Positions 6,584-26,828 of a stretch of 33,063 bases of DNA are shown here, piece by piece. Both the position numbers and the translations under genes were made by a program. The notes under the pieces were generated by a model. That model had not been told where the DNA came from. It made no database searches and saw only the letters and a program-made list of their open reading frames with translations. The stretch comes from a virus. Location: the IMG/VR virus record IMGVR_UViG_3300042546_000441, positions 1 through 33,063 of that record; one strand, written 5' to 3'. Numbering within the stretch: position 1 is the first letter of the stretch; each line of letters begins with the position of its first letter.

Positions 6584-8421
6584 TGGCTGCTGGTAAGGGT
6601 ATCCAGATCGTTGTCGGTACCGATTACAACGACCGCGACCTCAAGCGCGCCCAGGCAGACCTGAACCGCCTGAAGATGCAGGCGGCGAAGACTCAGGGCC
6701 CCATGAAGCAGCTGGGCGGCACGCTTCGCGGCTTCCTCGGCCCGGCGTTCGCCCTTGCTGGCGCAGCTGCCGCAGGCTTCGCCCTCAAGCTCGGCGTCGA
6801 GGCAGTCCAGGCCGCCATCGAGGAAGAGAAGTCGGTTGCCCGCCTAAAGATGGCGCTGGACAACCTCGCCCTCGGCTTCGCAATGCCCGTCGTCGACGAC
6901 TTCATTGACAAGACGCAGCGCGCCTCCGGCGTCGCCGACGACCAGTTGCGGCCCGCCCTGGGGCAACTTGCCGCCGCGACCGGCAACTTGTACGACGCTC
7001 AAAACCTGCTCAACCTGGCGCTCGATGTGTCAGCCGGCACGGGCCGCGACCTCACCAGCGTCACCGCCGCGCTCTCTAAGGCCGCCAACGGCCAGACCAC
7101 GTCGCTTCGCCGCCTCGCCCCCAGCATCGACGGGGCCGTGCTCAAGACTGGCGACCTCACCGCAATCACTGGTGAGTTGACGCGCCTCTTCGGGGGCCAG
7201 GCCGAAGCCCGCGCCAACACGTTCGCGGGCACCATCGACCGGCTCACCATCGCCGCAGACGAACTCATGGAAGCCTTCGGCAAGGGGTTCCTTGACGCCT
7301 TCCAAGAAGGACTCGGCGGCAGCACCGAAGACCTCATGAAGACCCTGCAAGACCTCGAGCCGCAGATGGAGCAGATCGGCGGCACCATCGGCAAACTTGC
7401 CGGGACCATCGGCAAGATGTCAGGCGCCATTGAGCTGTTCGGCAATCTTGTCAACGTCGCCGTCGTCAACAACATTGGCCCCTGGCAGATGCTTGCTGAC
7501 GCGATTGGCCTGGGCGCGGACGAGTCCGACGTCTTTTCCGCCCGCGGCAAGGACATGGCCGACGTTCTCTCAGGCACGGTGTCATCGGGTATTCAGCAGG
7601 CCACCGACGACATGGGCAAACTTGCCCGCGAGGCAGAAGAGACCGAGCAGTATTTCGAGAACCTCAACTCGGAACTCAAGATCTTTGGGGATCTGACCTC
7701 AAAAAATGACGCCGTCCGCGGATACCAGGCCGCCCTCGACGACCTTCGCAAGTCGGTGAAGGAGAACGGTCGCGCGTTCAATGACACGACGGAGAAGGGG
7801 CGCGCTAACGCCGACGCCCTTGACGACATCTTCAACTCTGCGCAGAAGGTGGCGGAGGGCCAGCAGACAGCGGCCGAGAAGATCCGCACGATGGAGCAGG
7901 CGTCAGCGGACGCTAACGACGTACTGAAGAAGATGGGTGTTCCGCCCGATGTGCGCGCCTCCCTGATTCAGCCTTTCGACACCCTTATCGCGAAGTTCCG
8001 CGAGAACAACACTCTGGCGGACAATCTGAAGCAGCGCATGGAGGGCTTGCCCACCGGCACCCGCACGTTCACCTACGACATCGTCGTCAACAACGCCAAC
8101 AGCCTGCCGCCGCACATGCGCGCCGCCGGTGGCCCTATCGGCCTAGGAGGCCGTGGCTCCGACACCGTCCCCGCCATGCTGACCCCAGGTGAGTTCGTCA
8201 TCAGGAAGTCTGCGGTGCAGCAGTTCGGGCGCGGCTTCTTCTCGCAGCTCAACCGCGGCATCAACCCGCTCGCGGGCATGACCCCGACCGCAGGCGGCTC
8301 AGGTGGCGGCCTAACGATCAACGGCGGCATCACTGTCCAGTCGGCTCCGGGTGAGCGTGCTGAGACGTCCCTTCCCCGTGCGCTGCGGCGTGCGGCTTTC
8401 CTGGCAGGCGTGAATGGCTGA
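6583..8421 (+). CDS. Tape measure protein
   Basis: A 612-residue protein that sets tail length and is ejected with the DNA. It is largely helical and rich in A, L, K, D and E. A hydrophobic glycine-alanine stretch lies near residues 46-70 (FLGPAFALAGAAAAGFALKL), and another around residues 280-310. The C-terminal part carries GLGGRGSDTVPAMLTPGEFV and I-R-K-S-A-V, a motif found at this place in many actinophage tape measures. At about 1.5 angstrom per residue the tail would be roughly 90 nm, a short siphovirus tail. The ATG overlaps the previous stop and the gene overlaps the distal tail gene by eight bases. Confidence 0.93.
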   Translation: MAAGKGIQIVVGTDYNDRDLKRAQADLNRLKMQAAKTQGPMKQLGGTLRGFLGPAFALAGAAAAGFALKLGVEAVQAAIEEEKSVARLKMALDNLALGFAMPVVDDFIDKTQRASGVADDQLRPALGQLAAATGNLYDAQNLLNLALDVSAGTGRDLTSVTAALSKAANGQTTSLRRLAPSIDGAVLKTGDLTAITGELTRLFGGQAEARANTFAGTIDRLTIAADELMEAFGKGFLDAFQEGLGGSTEDLMKTLQDLEPQMEQIGGTIGKLAGTIGKMSGAIELFGNLVNVAVVNNIGPWQMLADAIGLGADESDVFSARGKDMADVLSGTVSSGIQQATDDMGKLAREAEETEQYFENLNSELKIFGDLTSKNDAVRGYQAALDDLRKSVKENGRAFNDTTEKGRANADALDDIFNSAQKVAEGQQTAAEKIRTMEQASADANDVLKKMGVPPDVRASLIQPFDTLIAKFRENNTLADNLKQRMEGLPTGTRTFTYDIVVNNANSLPPHMRAAGGPIGLGGRGSDTVPAMLTPGEFVIRKSAVQQFGRGFFSQLNRGINPLAGMTPTAGGSGGGLTINGGITVQSAPGERAETSLPRALRRAAFLAGVNG

Positions 8422-9058
8422 GTCCTACAAGATCGGCGCGACCGATGTCACTGCGTTCCTGACCCACCTCCAGGTCATTGACGGCAACATTGGCATCCCG
8501 CCGCTGCGCCAGGACGACTACTCGGTGCCGGGGCGCACCGGCGCTATCGCCGCAACCCCGTGGTGGGGTCCCCGCGTCGTGACCTTCGGAGGGATCATCG
8601 CCGGGGCCACGCGCCCCGCGATGCAGACCAACCTCAAGAGCCTCGGCTCCCTCGTGCTCAATGGCGGCGACACGTTCACGATCTCGCGCACGATCGACAC
8701 GGCGGGCACCCCGACGCATACGGCGACGGCCCGCTACCTCGGCGGCCTCGAGCAGGCTGACGCCCTTTCCAACCGGGTCGCCCGCGTCGCCTTCGACGTG
8801 CAGCTCATGGACGGCTTCTGGTACGAGTCGGCCTACACCCCCGGCACCGCCCTGGCCGGCACCACCGTGGTCAACGTCAACGGCGACGCCCCCACCCAAG
8901 ACATCACCCTCACCTACTCCATCGGCGCTGGCTCCCAGCGGGTCACCAACTCGGCCTACCCCGGCCTCGCCCGGCTCACGTTGAAGCCTGGCAATAACAC
9001 TCTCGTGGTGACTGGCGGCGGCACCGTGACGATGGCGTACAAGGCGGCCTGGCTGTGA
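8414..9058 (+). CDS. Distal tail protein (Dit-like)
   Basis: This 214-residue, beta-rich protein should form the ring joining the tail tube to the tip complex. It opens YKIGATDVTAFLTHLQVIDG and contains V-P-G-R-T-G-A-I, a Dit-like strand-turn, followed by PRVVTFGGIIAGATRPAMQT. The second half (NVNGDAPTQDITLTYSIGAG, then LARLTLKPGNNTLVVTGGGT) looks like the galectin-like domain of Dit proteins. It lies between the tape measure and the large tip protein, the standard Dit location. It ends in a GTG/TGA overlap with the next gene. Confidence 0.8.
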   Translation: MAESYKIGATDVTAFLTHLQVIDGNIGIPPLRQDDYSVPGRTGAIAATPWWGPRVVTFGGIIAGATRPAMQTNLKSLGSLVLNGGDTFTISRTIDTAGTPTHTATARYLGGLEQADALSNRVARVAFDVQLMDGFWYESAYTPGTALAGTTVVNVNGDAPTQDITLTYSIGAGSQRVTNSAYPGLARLTLKPGNNTLVVTGGGTVTMAYKAAWL

Positions 9059-10869
9059 CCCATCTGCGCCTCGACGTCTACGACGCCTTGAACCAGACCT
9101 ACCAGGGCACTTTGTCGCAGTCACTAACCAGCGAGTTTGTGGATGAGTTCAACCAGCCCGGCTACGGCACCTGCACCGTTCCCCTGTTCTCGGCTGATGC
9201 TGCGCTGCTGGTGAAGGACGCCGTCGTCCGCGTCATCTACCGCGACGCGGTCAGGTTCGCTTGGTTTGTGGAGACCCGCGACCGGGATCTCGCCAACGCC
9301 AGCGGGCAGCAGACGCTCACGGCTTCGGGGCGCGGGCTGCTGGCCTGGCTTGAGGACGCGGTCCTCTACCCGCAGGGCGGGCTTGCTGACTTCCTCGCGC
9401 CCGACCGGCCCTTCAACTGGGCCTCCGGGCCAGGGTCCTGGCGGTCTTCCGGCAACTACCAGGCCGCCCTCGGCGTCCAGTGGAAGAACGACACCACCTC
9501 CCGCAAGAACCTCCCCGTGCGCTGGAAAGACCCATCGGCCCAGTGGATCTGGCGCACCAACCCCGAGACCGTCGTGCAGCGCGGCACCGTCAACTGGTTC
9601 TACAGAGACTTCACCCTCACCGACCCTGTCCGCGTCAAGTTCTTCGCCAGCTGCGACAACAGCATGGACGTCTTCCTCGACGGCCAGCAGATCATGTCCT
9701 CCAGCGACTTCGACCAAGAGGCCGCCTCGTTCACACAGATGGCCCGGTTCACCATCCGGCTCGGCATCGGCACCCACACCCTCGCCGCCAGAGTCAAGAA
9801 CGACAAGCCCTGGCAGCGGTACGACCTCGACGTCACCGCAAGCGACGACAAGGTCTCCTGCTCCGGCCACGGCCTCGCCAACGGCACCCAGGTCACCGTG
9901 ACGGACAAGTCAGGCGCCACCGGGCTCACCAAGGGCGACACCTACTTCGTGCGCGCCAAGACCGACGACGACTTCAAACTTGCCACCACAAACTCCGACG
10001 GCACCATCGTCAACGTCACCACCAACGGCAAGATCGACCTGCAGCTCAAGGTCGACAACACGGCTGGCTTCATTCTCACCGGCATCGAGGTCAACTCCGA
10101 CGGCAAAGAGACTGACACGGTCGTCGTGCGCACCAACACCTCGTGGCAGGTGTCGTCCACTGAGCCCTACTGGCGGCCGGCCATGATCCTGCGGACCCTC
10201 GCCGAGGAAGCCGCGACCCGCGGCGTGTACCGCATGAACCTCCTTACCTACGGCTTCACCAACTCCACTCCGACCAGCGGCTCGTGGACTACCGAGGCCG
10301 ACCTCACCCTCAAGGTCGGCGCCACCCTGCTCACGGTCCTTGACGACATGGTCGACCTAGGCCACGACTTCTGGCTGGACCCGTCCACCCTTGAGCTTGA
10401 GGCCGCAGAGTCCCGCGGCACCGACCGCTCCGCCACCGTTCTACTAGACACCGGGCAGAACCTCGCCCGGTTCTCCACCAGCGTCGAGCGACCCCTCAAG
10501 ACCGTCGCCCTCGTGCGCACCAAAAACGGCTGGCTTCGCACCGCCGACAACACTCTCCGCGACGCCAACGGCTGGCGCGAGACCTTCCTCGAATACGGCA
10601 ACACGGCCTCCGAGGATGCGGCCAAGCGCCAGGCCAACCGCGTCCTCGCCCGCACCGGCAAGACCCAGGTTCTCGCCCAAGGCGTCGAGGTCGTTGTCAC
10701 CACCGGCGCAGTCCCGTATGTCGACTTCTCGGTCGGCGACGTCGTGTCAATCCCTAACCCGTCGGGCACGGGCCTGCCCAACAAGGCGCGGATCTTGTCC
10801 ATCGGTCTCAAGGAGGAGGGCGGCGGCGTGTCCTTCCAACCGGAGCTCGAGGTGATCACAAGTGCCTGA
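9055..10869 (+). CDS. Tail tip protein, Gp37-like, with inserted lectin-like domains
   Basis: The 604-residue protein starts at GTG overlapping the previous stop. Residues 1-115 and about 360-604 look like the baseplate hub-type protein called Siphovirus ReqiPepy6 Gp37-like: LRLDVYDALNQTYQG near the start, then LTASGRGLLAWLED, and later FSVGDVVSIPNPSGTGLPNK. Between them, residues about 155-345 resemble a PA14/lectin-like sandwich (VRVKFFASCDNSMDVFLDGQ). That domain is itself split at about 256-333 by a glycine-rich module (GHGLANGTQVTVTDKSGATG, then TYFVRAKTDDDFKLATTN) of a kind seen in phage tail proteins. It probably binds the host surface and opens the tail. Family assignment moderate. 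Confidence 0.75.
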   Translation: MTHLRLDVYDALNQTYQGTLSQSLTSEFVDEFNQPGYGTCTVPLFSADAALLVKDAVVRVIYRDAVRFAWFVETRDRDLANASGQQTLTASGRGLLAWLEDAVLYPQGGLADFLAPDRPFNWASGPGSWRSSGNYQAALGVQWKNDTTSRKNLPVRWKDPSAQWIWRTNPETVVQRGTVNWFYRDFTLTDPVRVKFFASCDNSMDVFLDGQQIMSSSDFDQEAASFTQMARFTIRLGIGTHTLAARVKNDKPWQRYDLDVTASDDKVSCSGHGLANGTQVTVTDKSGATGLTKGDTYFVRAKTDDDFKLATTNSDGTIVNVTTNGKIDLQLKVDNTAGFILTGIEVNSDGKETDTVVVRTNTSWQVSSTEPYWRPAMILRTLAEEAATRGVYRMNLLTYGFTNSTPTSGSWTTEADLTLKVGATLLTVLDDMVDLGHDFWLDPSTLELEAAESRGTDRSATVLLDTGQNLARFSTSVERPLKTVALVRTKNGWLRTADNTLRDANGWRETFLEYGNTASEDAAKRQANRVLARTGKTQVLAQGVEVVVTTGAVPYVDFSVGDVVSIPNPSGTGLPNKARILSIGLKEEGGGVSFQPELEVITSA

Positions 10870-12247
10870 CGGTCAGATGCGGCGCGCCCCGCAGCTGTGG
10901 GAGCAGCGCCTCGCCCGCACCACCTCCATCCTCGGCGCCGGCATCTCCTCCTCCGGGGACGCCACCGCCATCGTGCCCCCGTCCCCGCCGCCTGGCACTG
11001 GCGGCGGCACCGAGCCCGCGCCCGTCGCACCCGCGCCTGGCCTCTTCATCGCCCCATCAGCGCCCACCCTCATCGGTTCGGTGCAGGGCATCAACGTCGT
11101 CTGGAACGGCCTCAACTCCGCCGGCGACCTGTGGCCCTCGGACACGTCCTACGTCGAAGTCCACATGTCGACGGCGGGCACCGGGTTCACCCCAGACGCC
11201 AGCACCCTCAAGGGCCGCCTCGTGCGACCTGGTGGGCTGGCAGTCACCGGACTTACTAGCGGCGTCACCTATCACTTCCGGCTGCGGGGAGCCGATCCCG
11301 CAGGCAATTTCACCAGCGCGGGTTCAGCAGCCAGCGGCACGCCCGGCCTCATCACGGCTCCCGACATCGCCGCCAACGCCATCACTGCTAACAGCATTGT
11401 CGCTGGGACGATCACCGGCTGGAGCATCAACGCGGCCTACCTGTCAGGCGGCACGATCAGCGGCGGTTACATTACTGGCGGCACAATCTCCGGTGGCTAC
11501 ATCTCTGGTGGCACCATGAGTGCCGGCTACATCAGCGGCGGCACGATTAGTGCACCCTACCTGACAACAGGGCCAAGCACGGAACGCCGAGTCATCCTTG
11601 GCGACACCGGGGAAACGACGGTCATCAAATTCAACGCCGCCAGTAGCTCCACGAAGTTCCTGCTGGGCATGAATTCAGACAACACCAACTTGGGCCTTTC
11701 AACTACAGGTGGTGGCGATTTCCTCGTCGTGCCTCCGCTGGACGCCCAGACGTCAGCCTCAATTGCTTCTTCAACAAACGGCCGCGGCCTGCGAGTAGCC
11801 AGTGATGGCAAGGTCTATTCCTACGGCATTGACGACAATACGACCGCCAGCGCCGCCAACGTCCGAGTCGGCGCCAGCGCGCAGCTACTCAGGTCTACCT
11901 CAACTGCACGCCTCAAGGATGACCTTGCCCCCCTTGACGGCGACCTGGCTGGCGTTGCCGCAGAGAAGATCAGCAGCGACCCGGCCAGCGTCGACCCCCA
12001 TGACGTCCTCACCATCACTCCCACCGAGTTTCGCAGCCTGTCCCCCGCCGACGGTGACGCCCGATCCCTCGGCTTTATCGCCGAAGACGTCGCCATCAAA
12101 TTCCCGTGGGCAGCCAACTGGGACGACGACGGCCTCCCTTCGGCCATCGAGGACCGACCGATCCTGGCGGCACTGCTCGCGGTCGTGAAGGACCAGGCCG
12201 CCACCATCACAGACTTGCGTACCCGTATCGAAGCCTTGGAGGCCTAA
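10862..12247 (+). CDS. Tail fibre with fibronectin-like domain, GG-repeat and S74-type chaperone end
   Basis: The 461-residue protein starts at GTG inside the previous gene. After a proline-rich linker (residues 38-60), residues about 65-160 resemble a fibronectin type III domain (G-L-x-S-G-V-T-Y-H-F-R-L-R-G). Residues 165-235 hold near-perfect repeats of Y-I-S-G-G-T-I-S-G-G, suggesting a trimeric beta-helical shaft. The C-terminal ~120 residues, from TSTARLKDDLAPLDGD to GFIAEDVAIKFPWA and ILAALLAVVKDQAATITDLR, match the intramolecular chaperone/peptidase S74 type that trimerises fibres and then cuts itself off. The serine at about 345-347 is the likely cleavage site. The final coiled coil supports trimerisation. 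Confidence 0.82.
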   Translation: MPDGQMRRAPQLWEQRLARTTSILGAGISSSGDATAIVPPSPPPGTGGGTEPAPVAPAPGLFIAPSAPTLIGSVQGINVVWNGLNSAGDLWPSDTSYVEVHMSTAGTGFTPDASTLKGRLVRPGGLAVTGLTSGVTYHFRLRGADPAGNFTSAGSAASGTPGLITAPDIAANAITANSIVAGTITGWSINAAYLSGGTISGGYITGGTISGGYISGGTMSAGYISGGTISAPYLTTGPSTERRVILGDTGETTVIKFNAASSSTKFLLGMNSDNTNLGLSTTGGGDFLVVPPLDAQTSASIASSTNGRGLRVASDGKVYSYGIDDNTTASAANVRVGASAQLLRSTSTARLKDDLAPLDGDLAGVAAEKISSDPASVDPHDVLTITPTEFRSLSPADGDARSLGFIAEDVAIKFPWAANWDDDGLPSAIEDRPILAALLAVVKDQAATITDLRTRIEALEA

Positions 12248-14529
12248 TGCCTTTGCCCGGTAACGTGTCGACGCTCGTCGTCCTCGGCACCTTCCTCACC
12301 CCAGAGGGCAACCCCTCGACGGGCACGATCACGTTCACCCCGTCAAGGTGGTTGACAAACTCGGGCGCCAACGTGGCCCTCCCCAACTCGGGCGTCACCA
12401 AGACGCTAGGCACGGCGGGCAACTTCACCGTCACCCTGCCGGTCACCGACGACGGCGACCTTCAGCCCGCCAACTGGTACTACACGGTCAGCGAAGTTGT
12501 CGACGGAGTCAGCCAGTCCTATGCGCTGCTCCTGCCCGGCACGGCCGGGTCAGGCGGCACCGTCTACCTCGCCGACCTGGCGCCGGCCGCCGAGCTCGGC
12601 CCGGAGTACGCCAGCCTGCGTGGCCCCGCCGGTGAGGCCGCCACTCTCGCCATCGGCACCACGACCTCGGTCGCCAACGCCGGCACCGCCTCCGTCACCA
12701 ACGTCGGCACCAACACCAACGGCACCCTCAACTTTGTTCTCCGCGACGGCCCCACCGGCCCGCAAGGCATCCAAGGCATCCAAGGCGTGCAGGGCAACAC
12801 CGGCACCTTCGCCATCGGCACGACCACTAGCGTCACCAACAGCGGCACCGCCTCGGTATCCAATGTGGGCTCCTCGACGGCCGGCACCTTCGACTTCGTG
12901 CTGCGGGACGGGCCGACAGGCCCAACCGGGCCACAAGGCCCGACCGCCAGCCTCGCCGTCGGCACGGTCACCTCGGTCACCAACTCAGGCACCGCGTCGG
13001 TAACGAACGTCGGCTCCAGCTCTGCCGGCACCTTCGACTTCGTCCTCAGAGATGGACCCACCGGCCCGCAGGGCGCCACCGGCACCGCGGCCACCATCAC
13101 CATCGGCACCATCGGCACTGTCGCCTTCCCGGGGCCCGGCACCGTCACCAACTCCGGCACCACCGGCGCCGCTGTCCTCGACTTCATCCTGGTGACCGGC
13201 CCTCAGGGCGACCTTGCTGGCCTGTCCGCCAACGCCCCCATCGCCTACGCCTCCAACACGTTCAGCCTCAATGTGGGCAGCGGCTTGGAGACCGCGGGCA
13301 CCACCTTGGCGGTGACCTACGGCACGGTCGCGGCGGCGCTCGGCACCACGACCGCCGGCACGGTCAACAGGGCGGCGCGGCAGGACCACGTCCACGCCTT
13401 GCCTACGGCCGCCGATATCGGGGCGGTCGGGAATGCCCTAGTTCAGAACAAAGCCGATTTGGTCACGGCTACGGGGAACGCCACCCCCGCGAGGCTTGCG
13501 GTGGGCAGCAACGGGGACGCCCTCGTCGCTGACTCCACGACCACAACGGGCCTGCGCTGGCAGCCTAACTACAACGCTGGACGCAACCGAATCATCAACG
13601 GCGGGTTTGACATCTGGCAGCGCGGAACCAGTTTCGCGTCTGGCAGCCTTTTCCAGTACACCGCTGACCGTTGGTTTGGGAATTCATTTGCTGGGGTTAC
13701 ATGCACCGTCAGCCGTGAATCGTTCACTCCCGGCGCGGCCCCGGTCGCAGGCTATGAGGGTACTTATCATCTGCGGCTTGTGCGTGGAGCAGGAACGGTT
13801 ACGGCAGCCTCGTACCTAACTCAGCGCATAGAAGATGTACGCACGTTCGCGGGTCAAACTGTGACGGTTTCGTTTTACGCCAAACTGGCTTCGGCTGGCA
13901 CGGTTACTGTGAGTTTCGATCAAAAGTTTGGCTCTGGTGGCTCGTCTGATGTGATCGGTTCCGGCACCAACTTGTCGGTCACTACTTCATGGGCTCAATA
14001 CTCGGCGACAATCTCTGTGGCATCCGTGTCTGGGAAAACGATTGGCGCGTCATCGTTCTTGGATTTGGTGGTCACGCTTCCGCAGGCGCTTGGCAACTGC
14101 ACATTTGACATCTGGGGTGTGCAGGTTGAGGCGGGCAGCGTGGCTACCCGTTTCGAGGAGGAGCCGTTTGAGGCGACGCTACGGAAATGCCAGCGGTACT
14201 ACCAACGATTCGTTGCAGGTACAGGCTACGGACGCTTCGGTATTGGATCAGTTGATACCATCACGACCGCACTATGCTACGTCAACACAAGCGTTGCGAT
14301 GCGTGTGACTCCGACGGCGATAGACACAACCGGAACCGCATCAAACTACGCCATCTACGATGCTGGCACGATTCGAGCGTGTTCCGCAGTCCCAACAATT
14401 CTGGCTAACTCTACTGACCAGACAAGCGTTGTAACTGCTACCGCTTCCAGCCTGACTACGGGTAGAGCCGTCGAGTTGATGGCAAACAATGTTTCAACCG
14501 CCTACATTGGCCTAAGTGCGGAGTTGTGA
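12247..14529 (+). CDS. Receptor-binding tail fibre with collagen-like repeats
   Basis: The ATG overlaps the previous TAA by one base. The 760-residue product has an N-terminal attachment part (LPGNVSTLVVLGTFLTPEGN), then four ~40-residue repeats at 12640-13210. In each, a beta unit (IGTTTSVTNSGTASVSNVGS) alternates with Gly-x-y runs (GPTGPQGIQGIQGVQG). The C-terminal ~320 residues begin NRIINGGFDIWQRGTSF, with TADRWFGN following, the typical start of a carbohydrate-binding module of tail fibres. Base composition changes near 13,560: the tip region is poorer in G/C third codons than the shaft. This suggests the receptor-binding tip was exchanged by recombination. Confidence 0.85.
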   Translation: MPLPGNVSTLVVLGTFLTPEGNPSTGTITFTPSRWLTNSGANVALPNSGVTKTLGTAGNFTVTLPVTDDGDLQPANWYYTVSEVVDGVSQSYALLLPGTAGSGGTVYLADLAPAAELGPEYASLRGPAGEAATLAIGTTTSVANAGTASVTNVGTNTNGTLNFVLRDGPTGPQGIQGIQGVQGNTGTFAIGTTTSVTNSGTASVSNVGSSTAGTFDFVLRDGPTGPTGPQGPTASLAVGTVTSVTNSGTASVTNVGSSSAGTFDFVLRDGPTGPQGATGTAATITIGTIGTVAFPGPGTVTNSGTTGAAVLDFILVTGPQGDLAGLSANAPIAYASNTFSLNVGSGLETAGTTLAVTYGTVAAALGTTTAGTVNRAARQDHVHALPTAADIGAVGNALVQNKADLVTATGNATPARLAVGSNGDALVADSTTTTGLRWQPNYNAGRNRIINGGFDIWQRGTSFASGSLFQYTADRWFGNSFAGVTCTVSRESFTPGAAPVAGYEGTYHLRLVRGAGTVTAASYLTQRIEDVRTFAGQTVTVSFYAKLASAGTVTVSFDQKFGSGGSSDVIGSGTNLSVTTSWAQYSATISVASVSGKTIGASSFLDLVVTLPQALGNCTFDIWGVQVEAGSVATRFEEEPFEATLRKCQRYYQRFVAGTGYGRFGIGSVDTITTALCYVNTSVAMRVTPTAIDTTGTASNYAIYDAGTIRACSAVPTILANSTDQTSVVTATASSLTTGRAVELMANNVSTAYIGLSAEL
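12640..13210 (+). repeat. Four imperfect in-frame repeats in the fibre gene
   Basis: Units of about 130-160 bases encode I-G-T-x-T-S-V-x-N-x-G-T-A-S-V-x-N-V-G then F-V-L-R-D-G-P-T-G-P-Q-G. Copies two and three are the closest; the fourth (GTIGTVAFPGPGTVTNSG) is the most diverged. Unit number could vary by recombination and change fibre length. Confidence 0.85.
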
Positions 14530-23368: not shown

Positions 23369-24236
23369 TCGAGTGGCGAGTGGTGAAAGCGTTCACCTAA
23401 TGGCTGGTGCTTTGGAACCACCAACCGATTTGCAGATCGTATGGCGCCGTGCGACAAATACAGCCGTTCGCATTGTTGCGGACGAAGCCGCCCAATTCAT
23501 CTTTCAGTCAAACCGTGACGATTGGTCAATAAACAAAGCCAGTTTTGGCATCATGCGTCCCCCCTTTGATAACTGCTGGATCGAATGGCTCACGCCTTCA
23601 CACAGACTTGTTGACGGCGCGTGGCACTTCAGGGGCAAGAGCCGCGTGGCTGCTCACATGATTTTGCACGATGATGGCGGGCTTTGGTTTGAGGTTCTAT
23701 TTGCAGATCGTGCGAACAGGCCGCTAGTGGTGGCGCCGTTCACCACACACATCACCGGGGAAAGTGACCCCGACAATGCCCACGAGCGGGTCAGCCTCTA
23801 TGCAGGTAAGGAAATCCTTCGAGACAAGGCCGGGCTTTCAGCCGACATTGATCTGGCAACGTCATTGGCAACGGAATTATGGCCGGCCTACCTAACCCTT
23901 GGCTGGCTCAATTGCCGCAACGTCAGCACAACAGACGTCACGGTCAACGCCCGCATAGCGGCTAAACGCCAGCGCCGGGGGCAGCCTCGAGGCCTGGACT
24001 ACAAGCGCATTGTTCTTGACGAAGGCACCCAGCGCGCCCTAACCGTCAACCGCGACGCGGAACAACACGGCAAGCGACTACACATCGTCCGAGGTCACAT
24101 CAAGCACTACACCCCAGAGCGACCCCTATTTGGCAAATACACGGGCAACTACTGGTGGCACCAGCAAATGCGCGGCAATGCCGACCTAGGCCGCATCAAC
24201 CACGAGTACCACGTCGCCAGCAGAGGACCTCGATGA
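23355..24236 (+). CDS. Conserved phage protein of unknown function
   Basis: TTG 23355 with AAAGGA seven bases upstream is preferred, giving 293 residues. The C-terminal half carries RGHIKHYTPERPLFGKYTGN, then Y-W-W-H-Q-Q-M-R-G, a pattern I have seen in many environmental phage proteins near replication genes. Its role is not known to me. The mid part has A-Y-L-T-L-G-W-L-N-C-R-N. The gene uses more A/T third positions than either neighbour, so it may have been acquired separately. It overlaps the primase-helicase start by ATGA. Confidence 0.6.
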   Translation: MRIFDRVASGESVHLMAGALEPPTDLQIVWRRATNTAVRIVADEAAQFIFQSNRDDWSINKASFGIMRPPFDNCWIEWLTPSHRLVDGAWHFRGKSRVAAHMILHDDGGLWFEVLFADRANRPLVVAPFTTHITGESDPDNAHERVSLYAGKEILRDKAGLSADIDLATSLATELWPAYLTLGWLNCRNVSTTDVTVNARIAAKRQRRGQPRGLDYKRIVLDEGTQRALTVNRDAEQHGKRLHIVRGHIKHYTPERPLFGKYTGNYWWHQQMRGNADLGRINHEYHVASRGPR

Positions 24237-26344
24237 CCATGCCCGATCCTGCCAGCCCACTCCTTGACGCGGCACGCGCCTGGTACGACGCCGGCTTCTG
24301 CGTCATCCCCAGCCACGAGGACGGCGGCAAACGACCCTTCGGCCAATGGAAAAAATACCAAACCCAGCGCCCCGACTGGTCGACGCTCGAGGGCTGGCTG
24401 CAGTCCGGCCGCTACTCCGGCATCGGCCTCATCATGGGCCGCGCCAGCGGCAACACCGAAATGGTCGAAATTGAAGGGCCCGGCAACCTCATCGTCCCCC
24501 GCGTTCAACAGCTCTTTGACATGGCGCACAGCATGGACCTCGACGGCAGCCTGGGCTTGGTCGCCCTTATGGAACGCATCTACCACGGCTGCGCCGAAAC
24601 CAGCGCCGGCGGCGGCCTCCACATCTTCATCCGCGTCACCGACGGCGAAGTACCCGGCAACCAAAAACTCGCGGGCAGCCCGGACAAAGTCGTCGCCGAA
24701 ACCCGCGGCGAAGGTGGCTTCGTCATTGTCTGGCCCACCCCCGCCCGCACCGGCCACGAACCCGGAGCCGCCTACCTCCTCCTCCCCAACGCACACCCCG
24801 ACAACGCCGCCACCGTCACCGCCAGCGAACTCGACTGGATCCACGCCGTCTTCACCGACGCCTTCGGCGGCTGGCGCGAACCAGCCAAAGCCGCGGCCCC
24901 CAAGAGCGCCACGCAACTTTCCACCAGTCCCTCAACCACCGACCTCTCCCCATTCGACGACTACCGCCAGCGCACCACCTGGCGCGACATCCTCGAACCC
25001 GCCGGCTGGAGCCACCACTCCAAAGACGCCACCCACGACTACTGGACAAGGCCCGGCAAAGACAAGCGCGACGGCCACTCCGCCTCAACCATCGAAGACG
25101 GCCCCTTCTACCTCTTCTCCAGCTCCGTCGCCGGCATGCCCATCGAGCAAGGCCTCTCTAAAGGCCAGGTTTACGCCCACCTCCACCACGACGGCGACCT
25201 CTCAGCAGCCACCCGGCAACTACGCGCCGACGGCTACGGCGACACCAATACCAGCCACGACCTGCCCCTCGCCGAATTCATCACCAGCCCCACAGTCGAC
25301 GACTCCACCGAACGCGAACGCACCAGCTGGTGGCCCCGCGACCTCACCGGCGTCATCCAAGGCCACGAAACCGAACCCGACCCCACACACCTCACCCGCG
25401 GCGACGGCCCCGCCATGTTCTACTCCGGCCGCGTCAACGGCCTCATCGGCGAATCCGAAAGCGGAAAAACCTGGGTCGCCCTACACGCCACCACCCAAGA
25501 ACTCGCCCAAGGCAAACCAGTCATCTACCTCGACTTCGAAGACAGCGCCCCCGGCATCGTCACCCGCCTCCGCAAAATGGGCTGCGACGACAACCAACTC
25601 GCCCACCTCACCTACATCTCCCCCGACGAAAGCCTCAGCCTCCCCGCCAAACAAGACCTCGGCGAAGCCCTCGCCCAAGCGCACGCCTCCCTCGTCATCG
25701 TCGACGGCTTCAACGCCGCCATGACCCTCATGGGCCTAGACATCAACTCCAACAACGACGCCACCCAATTCGCCCAAGTCCTCCTCAAGCCCATCGCCGC
25801 CACCGGCGCCTGCGTCATCTACGTCGACCACGTCCCCAAATCCCGAGAAGCACGCGGCAAAGGCGGCATCGGCGCCCAAGCCAAGCGCGCCATGACCACC
25901 GGCTGCGCCCTCACCGTCACCGTCACCGAACCCTTCGGGGAAGGCCAGGCCGGACGCCTCCACCTCACCGTCGACAAAGACCGGCCCGGCAAAGTCCGCG
26001 CCAGGTCTTACGCCGCCAAGCACGCCGGCGACGTCGTCATCACCCCGCAAGGGCAGCAAATTCACATCAACATTCAGCCCAGCGACAAAGGCCAAGCCGT
26101 CGATCCGTCAGAAACCCAAGCCCGCCGCGAACTCATCGCCGTCGTCAAAGAAAACCCAGGAGCAAGCCAGTCTCAGCTCGAGAAACTCGTCAAGGGCGGA
26201 AGCAAACTTCTGCGGGGCCGCCTGGACTACCTCGTCCACCTCGGCAAACTGCAAGTAGTCAACGGCCCACGCAGCAGCAAGCTCTACTACTTCATCGAAG
26301 AACTCGAATCTTTACCCGCCTTCGAGGCGGTCGAAGATGCATGA
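24233..26344 (+). CDS. Primase-polymerase/RecA-like helicase (replication protein)
   Basis: A 703-residue protein. Residues ~8-200 match a bifunctional primase-polymerase domain: a start like W-Y-D-A-G-F-C-V-I-P, acidic metal site MVEIEGPGN (E79, E81), and GGGLHIFIRV with H130. Residues ~240-335 look like a primase C-terminal/linker domain. Residues ~395-610 are a RecA-like helicase: Walker A GESESGKTW (406-414), Walker B LVIVDG (D491), and VIYVDHVPK. A winged-helix-like end follows (VVKENPGASQSQLEKLVKGG). It should open and prime DNA at the origin. Iterons start at its stop codon. Start ATG overlaps the previous stop. Confidence 0.9.
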   Translation: MTMPDPASPLLDAARAWYDAGFCVIPSHEDGGKRPFGQWKKYQTQRPDWSTLEGWLQSGRYSGIGLIMGRASGNTEMVEIEGPGNLIVPRVQQLFDMAHSMDLDGSLGLVALMERIYHGCAETSAGGGLHIFIRVTDGEVPGNQKLAGSPDKVVAETRGEGGFVIVWPTPARTGHEPGAAYLLLPNAHPDNAATVTASELDWIHAVFTDAFGGWREPAKAAAPKSATQLSTSPSTTDLSPFDDYRQRTTWRDILEPAGWSHHSKDATHDYWTRPGKDKRDGHSASTIEDGPFYLFSSSVAGMPIEQGLSKGQVYAHLHHDGDLSAATRQLRADGYGDTNTSHDLPLAEFITSPTVDDSTERERTSWWPRDLTGVIQGHETEPDPTHLTRGDGPAMFYSGRVNGLIGESESGKTWVALHATTQELAQGKPVIYLDFEDSAPGIVTRLRKMGCDDNQLAHLTYISPDESLSLPAKQDLGEALAQAHASLVIVDGFNAAMTLMGLDINSNNDATQFAQVLLKPIAATGACVIYVDHVPKSREARGKGGIGAQAKRAMTTGCALTVTVTEPFGEGQAGRLHLTVDKDRPGKVRARSYAAKHAGDVVITPQGQQIHINIQPSDKGQAVDPSETQARRELIAVVKENPGASQSQLEKLVKGGSKLLRGRLDYLVHLGKLQVVNGPRSSKLYYFIEELESLPAFEAVEDA

Positions 26345-26828
26345 ACGACCCCGGCACGACCCCGGCACGACCCCGGCACTTGTCCTATTTGACCAAATAG
26401 GCCGTCAAACCGTCAGCCCTCACGAAACGACCCCGGCACCCCGTCCCCGGTCTACACCGGGACGGGGACGGGGTCGTAGAGCCGACCCCGGCACAACCCC
26501 GGCACAGCCCACCAACAAATTCACCGCCCACACCTGCCGCAAATGCTCGGCCATCACCATCGCCGGCACCACCTTCGGCCTCCGCGTCGACCTCGAGCCC
26601 CAGGTCCTCACCGACGAAACCGAATACGCCGCCCTTCTCGCCGGCGTCCCCACCTACGACCTCTGGCCGGACCGCACCGCCCGACGCCGCCACCTCGAAG
26701 AAATTGCCCACCCCGAGCGCGTGCCCCGCCACGCCCACCACACCTGCGGCACCACCTACGGCACCCTCCCCCGCCCCACCCCACTAGCCACCAGCCAAGC
26801 CGACCCAACCGGCCCGGCCCCGTTCTAG
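26337..26828 (+). CDS. Zinc-binding protein whose 5' end carries the iteron array
   Basis: The 163-residue product starts at ATG within the previous gene. Residues 1-60 are low complexity (rich in P, G, R, T), because the DNA there consists of 11-bp repeats and palindromes. Residues 62-140 look like a real domain with C-R-K-C near residue 68 and H-H-T-C-G near 137, likely a zinc fold. No other start codon lies between. The N-terminal part is probably dictated by the DNA element, not by protein function. Confidence 0.6.
   Translation: MHERPRHDPGTTPALVLFDQIGRQTVSPHETTPAPRPRSTPGRGRGRRADPGTTPAQPTNKFTAHTCRKCSAITIAGTTFGLRVDLEPQVLTDETEYAALLAGVPTYDLWPDRTARRRHLEEIAHPERVPRHAHHTCGTTYGTLPRPTPLATSQADPTGPAPF
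26384..26401. promoter_or_regulatory. AT-rich perfect palindrome within the iteron array
   Basis: CCTATTTG-AC-CAAATAGG is an 8-bp perfect inverted repeat. It is the only AT-rich stretch in a very GC-rich neighbourhood, placed between iterons three and four. It might be a DNA-unwinding element or the operator of a dimeric regulator. Confidence 0.65.
26439..26467. other. GC-rich hairpin within the iteron array
   Basis: A 12-bp stem with one bulged C and a four-base loop (CTAC) is formed by 26439-26451 and 26456-26467. It follows iteron four by one base and is followed by the inverted iteron copy. It could be a priming or nicking structure at an origin, or a terminator after the helicase gene. 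Confidence 0.6.

Follow-up and report, generated by a model that had tools for sequence, protein, structure and literature searches.

A dense array of short direct repeats lies directly 3' of the stop codon (26342-26344) of a primase-helicase gene in a viral genome, and we asked what function this array serves and which protein reads it. The window, by which we mean the whole stretch of DNA that was analysed, is a 33,063-base IMG/VR virus record that encodes a terminase, portal, protease, major head protein, tail proteins, endolysin, integrase and an Lsr2-like protein, with most genes on one strand. Judging from this set of head, tail, endolysin, integrase and Lsr2-like genes, we infer that its most likely source is a temperate actinobacterial phage, whose genome is almost whole here and was opened at the head genes. 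Elsewhere in the window we observed several imperfect tandem repeats of 30, 24 and 144 bp, which lie before and within the tail fibre gene (11447-13255), and a glycosyltransferase-like gene (1162-2499) immediately 3' of the major head protein gene. For the array itself, we propose that it is the replication origin of the phage and that the preceding gene encodes a self-loading initiator. We assign this reading a probability of about 0.82; both binding and origin activity are inferred. The features on which the argument rests are as follows.

24155-26344, + strand: primase-helicase ORF, 729 aa, with a Prim-Pol domain, a RecA/KaiC-type ATPase and a C-terminal winged helix
26081-26311, + strand: C-terminal winged-helix domain (wHTH), the proposed iteron reader, supported by AlphaFold2, a match to AdcR and the covariation peak
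26168-26188, + strand: wHTH helix 2, with E-5 at codon 26180
26201-26239, + strand: wHTH recognition helix (helix 3), with S+2 at 26201 and R+6 at 26213
26337-26828, + strand: downstream ORF, 163 aa, phrog_10480, zinc-finger-like
26348-26379, + strand: three tandem iterons ACCCCGGCAC, copies at 26348, 26359 and 26370, with an 11-bp period
26384-26401, no strand assigned: AT-rich spacer, an 8-bp inverted repeat around 2 bases, its sequence not conserved in relatives
26430-26439, + strand: fourth direct iteron, whose flank CTCACGAA...CGACC is kept in relatives
26438-26474, no strand assigned: hairpin with 12-bp arms 13 nt apart, between copies four and five
26485-26505, + strand: fifth and sixth direct iterons, copies at 26485 and 26496

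In the register set by related phages, the repeat unit is ACCCCGGCAC with one free base after it, and none of the six direct copies (26348, 26359, 26370, 26430, 26485 and 26496) has a mismatch. The original prediction, made from the letters of the window alone, had described an 11-bp unit, ACGACCCCGGC, with three tandem copies, one dispersed copy, two near copies and one inverted part copy. The repeats are real and these counts are right in that register, with perfect copies at 26345, 26356, 26367 and 26427, single mismatches at 26482 and 26493, and an inverted copy with one mismatch at 26467-26477; the register, however, is off by 3 bases, and the near copies are an artefact of it. Allowing at most one mismatch, ACGACCCCGGC matches 13 times in the window against 2.5 expected, a number that 0 of 100 shuffles reached, while ACGACCCCGGCAC at the same tolerance is found in the array only. 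The array is also the top repeat cluster of the window, with a score of 7.1 compared to 5.2 for the next best and a median of 3.1. The hairpin, with 12-bp arms, extends over 26438-26474 rather than 26439-26467. What had been called a perfect palindrome at 26384-26401 is in fact interrupted by the two central bases of the spacer and is absent from relatives, and we rejected it as a conserved element.

The array had further been placed inside the N-terminus of a coding frame. The downstream ORF does read through it, starting within the helicase gene and overlapping its end, but no in-frame ATG, GTG or TTG start occurs from 26337 to the end of the array; its N-terminus is the array read as codons, and its conserved part starts past the array. 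The frame is open across the whole array in the window and in two relatives (L007 and L010), although translation of the first codons is not shown. The 11-bp period puts the tandem copies in different reading frames, as predicted.

We characterized the primase-helicase by profile searches and structure prediction. Its conserved start is probably the ATG at 24233. Pfam matches Prim-Pol (1.6e-10) and AAA_25 (1e-15), PHROGs assigns it to DNA polymerase/primase, and the AlphaFold2 model (pLDDT 90) resembles KaiC CI (Z 20.9) and the T7 gp4 helicase (Z 19.4). The wHTH, modelled alone with a pLDDT of 86, is predicted to fold like MarR, Zur and SlyA types (Z about 10-11), several of which are bound to operator DNA, and its sequence matches AdcR with an E value of 0.006. 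Residues are numbered here from a conserved glycine, G0, at window codon 26195. In the model, residue -5 falls in helix 2, and +2 and +6 fall in helix 3, the equivalent of the MarR/Zur recognition helix.

Comparison with close relatives revealed that the letters of the iterons change together. Five phages (L007, L008, L009, L010 and L011) encode helicases that are 66-75% identical to that of the window and carry the same array arrangement in the same place, in agreement with the expectation that related phages would keep repeats after this gene; none of them keeps the protein N-terminus without the repeats. Their unit is ACCTCGTCCC, not ACCCCGGCAC. The two differ in three letters (T4C, T7G and C9A), and they do so in all direct copies of the window. 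The arms of the window hairpin carry a variant, ACCCCGTCCC, instead of the iteron, and of the three changes show only T4C, which suggests, by inference, a stepwise iteron change via ACCCCGTCCC. Other phages (L070 and L242) use ACCCCGTCCC throughout their arrays.

These changes are confined to a short island of DNA. Identity between the window and L007 or L008 is 48-73% over 26104-26488 and returns to 81-98% afterwards. A sharper case is provided by L052 and L062, whose aligned ATPase segments are identical and whose iterons are ACCCTTTCC and ACYAGTTCC, with reading segments SAVIKEVKGKTEWVL and NAVIKEVQGRREWVL, respectively. Their DNA is 93-100% identical over most of the gene, drops to 0-80% from ~240 bases before the stop to ~300 after it, and then recovers to 95-100%. 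Part of this drop is due to differing array length, and the array is also divergent between L052 and L061, which share an iteron; in the first part of the wHTH, however, L052 and L061 are 87-97% identical compared to 72-80% for L052 and L062. From these islands of divergence we infer, on the basis of sequence comparison, that wHTH and array change as one specificity cassette. Both parts of the claim, selection at the level of the DNA and a site that belongs with the primase-helicase, are thus strongly supported: the layout persists, the direct copies all switch letters jointly, and the helicase wHTH shows matching changes.

To place these observations in a wider context, we surveyed 190 distinct loci with related helicases from phages, prophages and two plasmids, assembled from protein scans, six against viral contigs and one against bacterial genomes, and from two plasmid records; all counts refer to the deduplicated set, with near-duplicates removed. 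A clustered 9-mer search was applied to 730 bases around the helicase stop, to an equal stretch inside the gene and to shuffles. Of the 190 loci, 88% had an iteron cluster (score at least 4.5) at the ATPase gene's 3' end; the stretch inside the gene had one in 3% and shuffles in 0%. A tandem run with a 9-12 bp period is present in 139 of 143 loci. The layout is largely kept, with two to three tandem copies, a spacer, one copy, a hairpin and one or two more copies. The iteron sequence is not: at least 33 cores occur. Among 118 representatives we counted 33 different six-base cores, which changed no fewer than 54 times along their ATPase tree. Registers could be aligned only with uncertainty for the most divergent iterons. 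We found no second family member with the iteron of the window.

The hairpin is part of what is conserved. The longest perfect stem in the arrays has a mean of 9.4 bp versus 5.0 in shuffles, and 68% of arrays have a perfect stem of at least 9 bp compared to 0% of shuffles. CTA or TTA lies between the hairpin arms in 31 of 43 clusters (10.8 expected), mostly near the middle, as in CCCTATAAGGG, CTCTATAGAG and CCCTTAAGGG; the corresponding segment of the window is GGTCTACACC, and its loop contains CTAC. The YTA loop class is conserved across lineages. Across these 43 clusters, a central CTA or TTA between C-rich and G-rich arms is kept even where the iteron has wholly changed. That the hairpin is a priming or strand-opening site is a guess.

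A blind DNA search for three tandem copies of ACCTCGTCCC in 2.9 million viral contigs returned seven loci, six of them on contigs already in the set; the contig of the seventh begins within the same helicase gene, just before the array, and encodes E-5, A+2 and R+6 as expected. The helicase gene and an array also occur together on two small actinobacterial plasmids, p-XQ-29-C (7.9 kb) and pKRAD02 (12.9 kb). Neither has an alternative initiator annotated, though a large part of what they encode has only a hypothetical annotation. Among 21 loci surveyed in host genomes, 14 had an array scoring at least 4.5 (three of the 21 came from genomes already seen), and the seven without were mostly distant ATPase homologues (34-44% identity).

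Some neighbouring cases lie outside this pattern. A pair of ACCCCGGCAC units occurs in one other viral contig, that of an unrelated phage (L346, 3431-3451), in tandem and in opposite orientation right after a different helicase-like gene; its 551-aa product is DUF927-like by eye only and does not match the window ATPase, and origin-type repeats after a helicase gene seem to recur in other helicase classes. L012 has GTGGAAC repeats (7340-7510), not window iterons, before the same downstream gene. Its Prim-Pol part is 68% identical and its helicase part is different, so that motor and array seem to have been exchanged together. In Arthrobacter phage RootBeer (L014), GTGACA-type direct and inverted repeats (8830-9060), a candidate for another origin, lie a few hundred bases after a primase/helicase gene. 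Microcystis phage MinS1 (L015) is recorded as a cyanobacterium phage, yet it has an Lsr2 gene and GC-rich DNA, and its helicase is close to those of Nocardioides prophages (same alignment group); its recorded host may need revision.

The original prediction had left open whether the site is an origin or an operator for the primase-helicase. As an operator, the array would allow the helicase or another regulator to control the downstream genes or the helicase itself. This would be consistent with the overlap between the array and the start of the next ORF, and iteron initiators often autoregulate. However, the array sits at the 3' end of the helicase gene, in some lineages within its 3' coding end (-270 to -100), and not at a promoter; a tandem triplet with a hairpin and an inverted copy is more elaborate than an operator requires; and the array is kept on small plasmids. 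We therefore consider an operator unlikely. An origin fits better because of the position at the gene's 3' end and the presence of the site with the gene on two small plasmids, although origin activity is inferred. Cumulative GC skew, which had been put forward as a check, reaches its minimum near 28.3 kb, about 2 kb from the array, and, with most genes on one strand, is not decisive. Mean AT content showed no AT-rich peak around the 139 tandem runs, and we do not claim a usual DUE (unwinding element).

Next, we determined which helicase residues covary with which iteron bases. Clusters at 75% ATPase identity were counted as independent, which is only roughly true, and loci from the host-genome survey were left out as automatic wHTH placement was unreliable for several of them. 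Iteron position 5 covaries with wHTH residues -5 (0.69 bit), +6 (0.63) and +2 (0.38), compared to 0.33 for the best ATPase column. Position 7 covaries most with +2, then with +4 and +3, and position 4 with -5 and -8. The combination of E-5 and R+6 was observed in 25 clusters with CG at positions 5-6 versus 0 of 20 without (Fisher 2e-7), and R or K at +2 accompanies C instead of T at position 7 in 6/7 versus 1/22 (p 1e-4). It is possible that N versus S at -8 reads A versus C at position 4. The tree of ATPases shows 21 changes of the CG state and no case of E/R without CG. The reverse does occur: 16 of the 118 representatives have a CG iteron without E-5/R+6, and the residue-base code is therefore incomplete. 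Among pairs with 85-99% ATPase identity, residues +6, +2, -8 and -5 differ in 55-75% when the iterons differ and in 1-5% when they are the same. The covariation was found independently of structure; mapped onto the predicted wHTH, the residues involved lie in helices 2 and 3. The C-terminal wHTH of the helicase thus appears to be the iteron reader, with binding inferred in the absence of binding data.

Linked recombination could in principle produce such a signal if the array were a packaging (pac/cos) or partition site for another protein, such as a terminase small subunit or a ParB-like protein. The wHTH and the array are adjacent in one divergent island, and in the window the terminase large subunit gene lies 2.1 kb downstream of the array. 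Linkage would nevertheless give equal covariation in all wHTH columns, whereas the signal peaks at -5, +2 and +6; the same residue-base pairs recur in many separate lineages; and in other lineages quite different genes follow the array. These points make a packaging or partition site very improbable. We give hardly any credence to the idea that the repeats merely encode a low-complexity N-terminus of the downstream protein, for which the frame left open in three genomes speaks, since the 11-bp period shifts the frame from copy to copy, the same positions of the DNA unit switch letters in every copy although codon contexts differ, the array of other lineages falls in another ORF or lies out of the ATPase frame, and concerted iteron changes between relatives already contradict it.

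The proposed origin and initiator resemble several characterized replicons without matching any of them. SaPI Rep and SCCmec Cch2 each use their C-terminal domain to bind iterons that lie immediately 3' of their own gene (PMC7581432). Both are self-loading initiator helicases with a primase fused or next door. The likeness to SaPI Rep-ori extends to iterons right after the initiator gene, with six perfect copies in the window, and to a C-terminal dsDNA-binding domain on the helicase, which here rests on a predicted wHTH and covariation without binding data. The alpha protein of satellite phage P4 unites a primase, a helicase and a C-terminal domain that binds iterons in a single chain (PMC4234260), the same three functions that are proposed for the window helicase protein, but its primase is of the TOPRIM type whereas the window N-terminal domain is a Prim-Pol (AEP). 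ORF904 of the Sulfolobus plasmid pRN1 shares with the window protein the combination of Prim-Pol, helicase and C-terminal winged helix, and has its origin just downstream of the gene, hypervariable with conserved DNA flanks (PMC4234260); pRN1, however, has an SF3 helicase and a large stem-loop without iterons. The motors of SaPI Rep and Cch2 are D5/Primase_Cterm or DUF927 (AAA+/SF3-like), and the RecA/KaiC fold of the window motor therefore places it outside the SaPI Rep, Cch2, P4 alpha and pRN1 families. In RSF1010, iterons bound by RepC, a RecA-like hexameric helicase (RepA) and a primase (RepB') start replication, and ssi hairpins serve as priming sites (PMC4234260). There these are three separate proteins, whereas the window has a single helicase-primase fusion, with the helicase's own wHTH as the proposed iteron reader. 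The 10-11 bp repeat spacing of iteron replicons in general is present, with initiator binding inferred from covariation only.

By analogy with SaPI Rep, Cch2, P4 alpha and pRN1, the helicase likely loads itself at its own origin, where the fused Prim-Pol would prime. In such a mechanism, the wHTH of the Prim-Pol/RecA-type helicase would bind the 10-bp iterons, one site per 10-11-bp DNA turn, and thereby gather helicase subunits on the array. Array and hairpin may then let the helicase ring open and load, after which the Prim-Pol domain would prime; a change in the reading helix would carry all direct iterons along with it. What we observed is the array, its layout, its association with the gene, the concerted changes and the residue-base covariation, while physical binding, helicase loading and priming at the hairpin are, like origin activity, inferred. 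Several observations tell against this reading: no AT-rich element stands out on average, the GC-skew minimum lies some 2 kb off, the hairpin arms of the window do not hold its iteron, the code has exceptions, and arrays are often missing beside distant ATPase homologues. In the open-licence literature we found no binding, helicase or replication experiments on any family member, no description of the layout (triplet, spacer, single copy, YTA hairpin, distal copies) with residue-base covariation, and no papers on iterons beside this helicase family, although an earlier mention is not excluded.

Taken together, these data probably define a widespread, undescribed family of mainly actinobacterial phage (and plasmid) replicons, in which a RecA-type helicase reads its own origin through a hypervariable cassette of wHTH and iterons with at least 33 specificities and a partly readable code. 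To our knowledge, the origins of most tailed phages of Actinobacteria are unmapped, and a rule that needs only sequence, namely to look immediately 3' of the helicase stop codon, would point to a candidate origin in roughly nine out of ten family members. How a DNA-binding helix and a multi-copy origin change jointly has long been puzzling, since the protein has to shift in step with every copy; with dozens of natural initiator-iteron pairs built on one layout, this becomes directly testable. Actinobacterial vectors could also profit, with matched orthogonal pairs as compatible replicons. If true, the hypervariable cassette suggests that these replicons frequently switch origin specificity; incompatibility between phages that share a host, or satellites, may be what drives the switching.
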